Of a stretch of 64,000 nucleotides of DNA, positions 45,586 to 48,173 are shown in pieces (within the stretch, counting starts at the first letter, position 1; every line of letters begins with the position of its first letter). Source of the stretch: Metapseudomonas boanensis. Its GTDB lineage: Bacteria; Pseudomonadota; Gammaproteobacteria; Pseudomonadales; Pseudomonadaceae. Location of the stretch: NCBI RefSeq assembly GCF_018704125.1, contig NZ_JAGTIS010000003.1:248001-312000 (forward strand), read 5' to 3'. A program made the translations under genes and the position numbers. The notes beneath the pieces are model-generated. The model made no database searches and had not been told where the DNA came from. It saw nothing but the letters and a program-made list of their open reading frames with translations.

Positions 45586-46077
45586 TCAATTGACGTTGAG
45601 GCGGCGACTTGTGCCGCGCAATGCGGCATATACCCAGGGCCAGAGCAGTGCGCTTACGAGCGCAGGGAGCAGGAACACCAAGGTAGGTGGGCGGTTGCCC
45701 GTGAGGGCATTGAGCCACAGCTGGACCAGTTGGGCCAAACCGAAAACCACGAGTAGCACAAGACACTGCTGCCATACGGGGAACATACGCAGACGCTGAT
45801 GCAATGTCAGCACCAGAAAGGTGATCAGGGCCAGGATCAGCGCGTTTTGCCCCAGCAACGAGCCATACAGCACATCCTCGGCCAACCCCAGCATCCAGGC
45901 AGTAGTCATACCCACCCGATGTGGCAGCGCCAGGGTCCAGTAGGTGAGAAACAGCGCTAGCCAGAGCGGACGGCCGATCTCCATGAAGCTGGGCATCGGC
46001 CCGATGCTGAGCAGCAAGGCCAGGAGCAGGCTGAGCCAGATCACCCAACCGTTGTTCGAGCGCACCCCAACCATCAA
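45586..46077 (-). CDS. mreD: Rod-shape-determining protein MreD
   Basis: 163 residues with five or six membrane helices (WVIWLSLLLALLLSIGP, LALFLTYWTLALPHRVGM, LLGQNALILALITFLVL, CLVLLVVFGLAQLVQLWL). The MreD core GMTTAWMLGLAEDVLYGSLLGQNAL is present. It links MreB and MreC to the wall-synthesis complex. The start overlaps the mreC stop. Confidence 0.94.
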   Translation of the reverse strand: MMVGVRSNNGWVIWLSLLLALLLSIGPMPSFMEIGRPLWLALFLTYWTLALPHRVGMTTAWMLGLAEDVLYGSLLGQNALILALITFLVLTLHQRLRMFPVWQQCLVLLVVFGLAQLVQLWLNALTGNRPPTLVFLLPALVSALLWPWVYAALRGTSRRLNVN

Positions 46078-47090
46078 CGACTCTCCTGATTGCTCTGGGC
46101 TGCCTGGGGCTTGGCGGGCGTTGCCGCTGCCGCTGGCGGGCTCGCTGGAGCCACTGTGGCTGGCTGTGTTGCCGCTTCGGGGGCTGCGCCTGGCAGTGCC
46201 GGCTTGGCGGCCTCGCGATCAGCCGCTTCCTGGGCGACGGCCGCATCATTGGCACGCTGCTCCGGACTGCGGGTATCGGAGAACACCAGGAGCATGTAAC
46301 GGCTGCGGTTCAAGGCAGCCGTCGGGACGGCCCGCACAATGGCAAAGGGCTGGCCGGAGTCGTGGATGACCTCTTTCACCGTCGCAACCGGGTAACCGGC
46401 CGGGAAGCGCTGCCCAAGACCGGAACTCACCAACAGGTCACCTTCCTTGATGTCGGCGGTATCCGCTACATGGCGCAACTCCAGACGTTCCGGGTTGCCG
46501 GTACCGCTGGCGATGGCACGCAGACCGTTGCGGTTGACCTGCACAGGAATGCTATGGGTCGTGTCGGTCAGCAACAGCACGCGGGCGGTGTAGGGCATCA
46601 CTTCGACCACCTGCCCCATCAGGCCTCGCGCATCGAGCACCGGCTGACCGAGGAACACACCATCCTTCTCGCCCTTGTCGATCAGGATACGGTGGGTGAA
46701 CGGGTTGGGATCGACGCCGATCAACTCACCCACCAGGACCTTTTCATCCACCAGTGCGGAGGAGTTGAGCAATTCGCGCAGGCGCACGTTCTGCTCGGTC
46801 AGGGTGGCCAGCTTCTGCAGGCGACGCTGCATCAAAAGCGCTTCGGCCTTGAGCTTCTCGTTTTCGGCAACCAGGGCGGTGCGACTGCTGAACTGGTCAC
46901 TGACCCCATCCCAAGCCCTGATCGGCAGGTCTGCCAGCCAGTAGAAGGGGGTCAGCACCAAGCCCATCTGGCTGCGCAGAGGCTTGAGGGTTTCGAAGCG
47001 GGCATCGACCACCATCAGCGCAGCCGATAGCACGGCGAACACCAACAGGCGCACGCCGAGCGAAGGTCCCTTGGTAAATAGCGGCTTGAT
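46074..47090 (-). CDS. mreC: Rod-shape-determining protein MreC, apparent AUC start
   Basis: Proposed 338 residues. The first canonical start in frame is GTG at 47054, but the 12 codons before it read [I]KPLFTKGPSLG, matching the N-terminus of E. coli MreC (MKPIFSRGPSL). The matching initiator position is an ATC at 47088-47090, with AGGAG six bases upstream and an in-frame TAG just before that. A membrane helix (LLVFAVLSAALMVV), a coiled coil (about residues 70-115), the MreC beta domains and a Pro/Ala-rich tail follow. MreC is the periplasmic scaffold of the elongasome. If GTG is used instead the protein has 326 residues. Confidence 0.93.
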   Translation of the reverse strand: MKPLFTKGPSLGVRLLVFAVLSAALMVVDARFETLKPLRSQMGLVLTPFYWLADLPIRAWDGVSDQFSSRTALVAENEKLKAEALLMQRRLQKLATLTEQNVRLRELLNSSALVDEKVLVGELIGVDPNPFTHRILIDKGEKDGVFLGQPVLDARGLMGQVVEVMPYTARVLLLTDTTHSIPVQVNRNGLRAIASGTGNPERLELRHVADTADIKEGDLLVSSGLGQRFPAGYPVATVKEVIHDSGQPFAIVRAVPTAALNRSRYMLLVFSDTRSPEQRANDAAVAQEAADREAAKPALPGAAPEAATQPATVAPASPPAAAATPAKPQAAQSNQESR

Positions 47091-47123
47091 GGCCCGCTCC
47101 TATGGCTGAGTAGCTCCCCGACC

Positions 47124-48173
<1,050 letters not shown>

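Follow-up and report, generated by a model that had tools for sequence, protein, structure and literature searches.

The mreC gene of Metapseudomonas boanensis appears to begin at an AUC codon, a start position that is strongly supported by comparison with relatives: the slot occupied by this codon is conserved, the Shine–Dalgarno sequence is positioned for it, in-frame stops lie upstream and substitution downstream is of the coding type. The window, that is, the whole stretch of 64,000 nt that was analysed (NZ_JAGTIS010000003.1, assembly GCF_018704125.1, positions 248,001–312,000), had previously been read without reference to other genomes. This sequence-only reading proposed the AUC start and took it as a feature of mreC here, whereas the class to which the codon belongs, AUU, AUC or AUA (AUH; ATH in the DNA), is family-wide in the Pseudomonadaceae and extends over much of the sampled Gammaproteobacteria. 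Taking the explanation as a whole, we consider it highly probable that mreC would be initiated with fMet at an AUH codon, that this start has been maintained in the relatives and that it keeps MreC low relative to MreB. The alternative that survives best, although we regard it as unlikely, is that AUH is used without regulatory meaning, as an ancestral quirk kept by drift, with a strong Shine–Dalgarno sequence giving enough MreC. Gene calls limited to ATG, GTG and TTG would shorten MreC, in the window by 12 residues. A core cell-shape gene with an AUH start over a family and much of a class would make the purpose of non-canonical starts directly testable.

The mreB–mreC junction and the position of the mreC start

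The gene order mreB–mreC–mreD is present in the window, with mreB as the cistron upstream of mreC on the minus strand (Table 1). This order was read from the open reading frames, supplemented by protein models for mreB and mreC and by position and likeness for mreD. Both models that recognise the window MreC do so above their cut-offs (92.75 bits for TIGR00219 and 28 bits for PF04085). In an open reading frame list allowing only ATG, GTG and TTG, mreC is counted from the GTG at 47054 and has 326 aa.

Table 1. Features of the mreB–mreC–mreD region, in window coordinates
Feature	Position	Strand	Remarks
mreB	47124..48161	-	ATG start, TGA stop 47126-47124; NF010539 547.4 bits, TIGR00904 534.6 bits
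In-frame TAG	47100..47102	-	Four codons before the ATC; overlaps AGGAG; read from the sequence
Shine–Dalgarno AGGAG	47097..47101	-	6 nt to the ATC; energy of pairing with the 16S tail -6.9
ATC, proposed mreC start codon	47088..47090	-	Sequence and comparison with relatives
GTG, first canonical codon downstream of the ATC	47052..47054	-	Codon 13 of the proposed protein
mreC from the ATC	46074..47090	-	338 aa; TIGR00219 225.2 bits, PF04085 147.9 bits
mreD	45586..46077	-	Identity by position and likeness; canonical start ATG, TTG directly before

Translation of the mreC frame from the TAG through the ATC gives, after the stop, ERAIKPLFTKGPSLGVR, and the codons that follow the ATC are AAG CCG CTA TTT ACC AAG GGA CCT TCG CTC GGC, then the GTG. 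The sequence-only reading had placed the ATC at the position of the E. coli initiator Met, with an AGGAG six bases ahead of it, an in-frame TAG just upstream that bars a longer MreC, and a first canonical codon, the GTG, twelve codons past the ATC. Each of these points is borne out when the minus strand is read, and the window ATC frame and the MreC chain 7eft_A (367 residues) align from the first residue of each. The resemblance that it had seen between the N-terminal block and the N-terminus of E. coli MreC also stands; the E. coli gene begins ATGAAGCCAATTTTTAGC.

Junctions between mreB and mreC were read in 357 loci (184 from the family, 85 from the order and 88 from the class), and removal of identical stretches left 296 distinct junctions (123, 85 and 88, respectively). 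The codon aligned with the window ATC, hereafter called the slot, is ATH in 268 of the 296, canonical (ATG, GTG or TTG) in 23 and not called in five. For 21 rows the mreC start was placed by eye, the ungapped alignment there being off by one to six codons.

An exact Shine–Dalgarno core of at least 4 nt is found within 22 bases upstream of the slot in 221 of the 268 ATH junctions, and in 219 of these 221 it lies 4–10 nt before the slot; an exact 4-nt core is absent in the other 47. The mean energy of the duplex formed with the 16S tail is -7.5 at the slot (n=268), compared with -2.1 at the next canonical codon (n=266) and -4.9 for shuffled sequence. Among the family junctions, per-site diversity falls to 0.29, 0.11 and 0.08 at positions -11, -10 and -9, as against 0.55–0.74 from -30 to -13, a dip that lies over the Shine–Dalgarno core in register with the slot. 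Downstream, the mean diversity of codons 2–12 in the 123 family sequences is 0.18, 0.09 and 0.50 at the first, second and third codon positions. Since the variation is mainly at the third position, these codons are evidently translated.

These data bear on the alternative that translation starts at the first downstream canonical codon (the GTG at 47054 in the window) and that the ATC block is an untranslated leader. Such a start is the one given by an open reading frame list restricted to ATG, GTG and TTG, and published numbering of Pseudomonas aeruginosa MreC fits a start at GTG codon 17. In the window, moreover, an AAGGGA lies 12 nt before the GTG, a weak and distant Shine–Dalgarno-like match with an energy of -5.0; with -6.9 at the ATC, the contrast between the slot and the downstream codon is therefore smaller in the window than the average over relatives. 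However, substitutions in the block between the slot and the GTG follow a codon-like pattern, this block matches the N-terminus of E. coli MreC, and the canonical codon is not conserved in place: the first one downstream lies from 2 to 67 codons past the slot, varying over the relatives, and on average lacks a Shine–Dalgarno sequence. In P. aeruginosa, a start at codon 17 would, judging from the sequence, leave a very short membrane segment. We consider a downstream start improbable.

The P. aeruginosa numbering itself appears to reflect such a shortened protein. PDB chain 6zlv, which we take to be P. aeruginosa MreC, is matched at 100% by the MreC of one genome (G130), which is hence taken as P. 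aeruginosa; the slot of its mreC (L393) is ATC behind TAGGAG. The P. aeruginosa MreC structure paper names Pro114, Phe115, Arg175, Glu188 and Arg190 (PMC8137920). When offsets of 8–21 were tried, offset 16 alone brought all five residues into agreement with the G130 protein; it places the start at GTG codon 17, and this fit is a further ground for the species assignment. The same paper has the first 14 residues hold both the cytoplasmic part and the membrane region (PMC8137920); 14 residues cannot accommodate both, which is what a numbering that begins within the membrane helix would produce. The lengths differ, being 330 in the construct names of that paper and 328 from GTG codon 17 in G130, which we tentatively ascribe to variation between strains in the Ala-Pro-rich tail. 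In the published P. aeruginosa structure, the numbering probably omits the first 16 residues.

Less probable still is that the Ile codon is internal and that translation comes from a canonical codon farther upstream. An in-frame ATG, GTG or TTG ahead of the slot could be scored in 50 ATH rows, and P. oleovorans and its neighbours have a GTG seven codons up. The Shine–Dalgarno sequence of the slot is stronger than that of the upstream codon in 45 of these 50 rows and weaker in five. Against an upstream start, the reading frame is closed by a stop ahead of the slot in 216 of the 268 ATH junctions, where ATG, GTG and TTG are all missing from the interval between stop and slot, and the Shine–Dalgarno core generally stands 4–10 nt before the slot, as given above. 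In 50 of the 268 the upstream in-frame stop lies no more than four codons from the slot. For the window itself, where the TAG is four codons before the ATC, an upstream start is refuted.

Two forms of coupling between mreC and its upstream neighbour were considered and dropped. A 76-aa open reading frame in another frame (46897-47127, minus strand) overlaps the mreC start and has its GTG start at 47127, over the mreB stop. It was rejected as a coupling leader for mreC since its GTG is lost in relatives that end mreB with TAA. Tight coupling of mreC to mreB by a short spacer was rejected as well: between 23 and 296 nt separate the slot from the end of mreB in 88 family loci, so that a fixed mreB–mreC overlap is not general.

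Distribution of the slot codon among relatives

Within the genus, mreC was found in 17 of 18 genomes, the window genome included, and the slot is ATC, ATT or ATA in all 17. A search of 398 Pseudomonadaceae genomes gave an MreC match in 395. In this search the match was absent in G007, G041 and G111, two of which are rated 99–100% complete; contig breaks are the likely cause. The same genomes were searched with a pattern for the mreC N-terminus (ATG AAR CCN NTN TTY NNN AAR GGN CC, encoding KPxF.KGP) and with a version in which the slot codon is swapped for ATH. The ATG form occurs in none of the 398 genomes and the ATH form in 352, with no occurrence in a backward control. Among the 46 genomes that lack the ATH pattern are the three without an MreC match and lineages with differing early residues; the IKLLF and IKSLF lineages have early residues that depart from the pattern, yet carry ATH at the slot.

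The comparison of mreB–mreC junctions across relatives that the sequence-only reading had proposed gave ATH at the slot in all 123 distinct Pseudomonadaceae junctions (61 ATC, 56 ATT, 6 ATA and no canonical codon). ATH was read in P. resinovorans, P. alcaliphila, P. syringae, P. fluorescens, Azotobacter chroococcum and Stutzerimonas stutzeri. Although one base turns ATC into ATG, a single-base sequencing or assembly error in the window ATC is refuted by the sharing of ATH with relatives (17 of 17 genus genomes having mreC and 123 of 123 distinct family junctions), which makes ATG in the reads very unlikely, and we give such an error practically no weight.

Since the rows from the order (85 of the genomes matched, which were 142 of 145, five of the 142 coming from the family itself) and from the class (88 of 207 matched among 229 genomes) are mostly better-scoring, the AUH share outside the family is biased upward in the counts obtained there: in the order (85 junctions), ATT 41, ATC 29, ATA 5, ATG 6, GTG 1, TTG 1 and two not called; in the class (88 junctions), ATC 35, ATT 21, ATA 14, ATG 10, GTG 4, TTG 1 and three not called. 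ATG makes up 16 of the 23 canonical junctions. When the best 30 of 58 lower-scoring class loci were read by eye, 17 had ATG, four had AUH (L372, L381, L384 and L389) and nine were unclear or had another codon. The start of E. coli K-12 mreC (L359) is ATG. The presence of ATG in E. coli, in 16 of the 23 canonical junctions and in 17 of these 30 lower-scoring loci indicates that AUH is dispensable for mreC function in general. The AUH start is not universal among Gammaproteobacteria.

Two further observations concern individual loci. In L062 and L139, the latter from P. matsuisoli, an ATG is found three codons past the ATC (ATC AAA CCG ATG CTG TTC), and this inserted codon may represent an intermediate on the way to a canonical start. 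In E. coli K-12, mreC has its ATG together with a weak Shine–Dalgarno sequence (-3.0), the opposite combination to that of most AUH relatives.

Maintenance of the non-AUG state and its possible role

Changes at the slot were counted on a quick FastTree tree of the MreC protein from which the slot had been left out; the counts are minima and do not distinguish gain from loss. Across 89 family loci, a minimum of 15 changes was counted at the third base of the slot; all were among C, T and A, and none led to G. The third base of the next codon (AAA/AAG) switched at least 11 times over these 89 loci, and this switching beside the slot indicates that G can be reached there. Assuming equal odds for the other bases, the chance of never reaching G can be roughly estimated at (2/3)^15, or ~0.002. 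Ten sets of shuffled labels needed 31–37 changes, compared with at least 15 for the real slot codons, indicating that the state of the slot codon is inherited but mobile. Over all 141 tree loci, four of which are canonical, the ATH/canonical state changes at least four times. An unconstrained start codon would be expected to reach AUG. A third base without G is, taken alone, something that would also fit an internal Ile codon, which is excluded in most rows by the upstream stops. We conclude that maintenance of the non-AUG state at the mreC slot is supported by the distribution and by the tree count, and this suggests that weak initiation of mreC has been preserved over a very long period.

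Two neighbouring genes served as controls. For mreB, 116 of 130 distinct loci carry ATG or TTG at the aligned slot, and inspection by eye showed an ATG in frame, one to three codons farther upstream, in the other 14. For mreD, where the test is a loose one, a canonical codon lies no more than eight codons from the aligned start in 139 of 139 loci. ATH-type starts like that of mreC were not seen in these 130 mreB and 139 mreD loci.

MreB is needed as a polymer, and MreC as a membrane activator of the elongation machinery. In the mechanism that we propose, the AGGAG would guide the ribosome to the mreC AUC, which would be read by the initiator fMet-tRNA. The product would be an MreC of 338 residues, with (M)KPLFTKGPSLGVR forming the N-terminal stretch ahead of the membrane helix. 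This initiation site would then exemplify an ancient AUU/AUC/AUA start that has been maintained in the Pseudomonadaceae and much of the Gammaproteobacteria, the feature kept at the slot being that its third base is not G. AUG, GUG and UUG are canonical for IF3, and other starts, including AUU, AUC and AUA, are discriminated against (PMC4611024). Given this discrimination, the likely function of the AUH start would be to make the shared operon yield less MreC than MreB, and MreC output might vary with the level of IF3. A lower mreC yield and dependence on IF3 are what we infer by analogy; the suggestion of the sequence-only reading that mreC translation is low or IF3-linked is plausible.

The reading in which AUH is an ancestral quirk kept by drift draws on the occurrence of ATG in several relatives without evident harm and on the good Shine–Dalgarno sequence that is usual at the slot. 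It is opposed by the 15 or more third-base changes in the family, none of them to G, AUG being normally favoured at starts. It is also opposed by the weaker Shine–Dalgarno sequences of canonical mreC starts, whose mean energy is -4.8 (n=23) compared with -7.5 for ATH (n=268; Mann–Whitney p ~1e-4, kinship ignored). The mean of the canonical starts is no better than that of shuffled sequence (-4.9), and some of them have a strong Shine–Dalgarno sequence (-9.5 and -10.0). The weaker sequences at canonical starts are consistent with a balance of total strength. Returning to the maintained, IF3-discriminated start, a wider version of it can be offered as a tentative possibility: the AUH start of mreC may be an old gammaproteobacterial device that, via IF3, ties the supply of MreC, and so cell-wall elongation, to translation capacity, lineages with AUG (E. 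coli seemingly among them) having weakened the Shine–Dalgarno sequence instead.

Comparison with known non-canonical starts

To our knowledge, few bacterial genes have an AUU, AUC or AUA start, the IF3 gene being the standard one, and mreC would be the most widespread such case known to us next to infC. By comparison, mreC has the traits of genes with IF3-discriminated starts: a non-canonical codon at the initiator position, its conservation and a properly spaced Shine–Dalgarno sequence. Conserved non-canonical starts are known as a kind (infC, pcnB, sigR, cvfC1 and ccpN), to which mreC would be a new addition with presumed IF3 discrimination. A PMC search, in which titles and the openings of abstracts were compared among the matches listed and in which subscription journals are little covered, returned no report of a non-canonical mreC start.

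The AUU start of E. coli pcnB reportedly limits its expression (Binns and Masters 2002), and this codon is of the same class as the AUH of mreC. The window genome, unlike E. coli, has no AUU at the start of pcnB. The gene (L391, G000:C22) was tried there as a second AUU gene and rejected, having a GTG and an ATG near its start, soon after an in-frame TAA.

In E. coli the infC start is AUU (PMC5472188, PMC9410913). In the window genome, infC (L360, G000:C34) reads GGAGTAATCACT-ATT-AAG, with a GGAG that overlaps the thrS stop. Both infC and mreC thus have an AUH-class start behind a Shine–Dalgarno sequence, followed by a Lys codon. They differ in that infC autoregulates IF3 itself, whereas mreC is a cell-shape gene within an operon and its control by IF3 is putative.

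In Streptomyces, one study gives the sigR start as GTC in 32 of 34 species and GTT in two, and reports that IF3 represses initiation at the GTC, so that SigR stays less abundant than its partner RsrA (PMC5472188). The sigR gene resembles mreC in a start that is kept across a genus, in a strong ribosome-binding site, in having been misannotated in genomes and, as proposed for mreC, in holding one protein of an operon below its partner. The sigR start is GUC or GUU rather than AUH and concerns one genus, and its regulation is experimental, whereas that of mreC is proposed by analogy. In Staphylococcus aureus, cvfC1 (AUU) and ccpN (AUA) are likewise reported as conserved and as having an extended Shine–Dalgarno sequence (PMC13009471). 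These two starts come from start-site ribosome profiling and belong to other genes, in another phylum, than mreC (PMC13009471). Beside these cases, mreC is unusual in its breadth and in the free change of its start codon among AUU, AUC and AUA.
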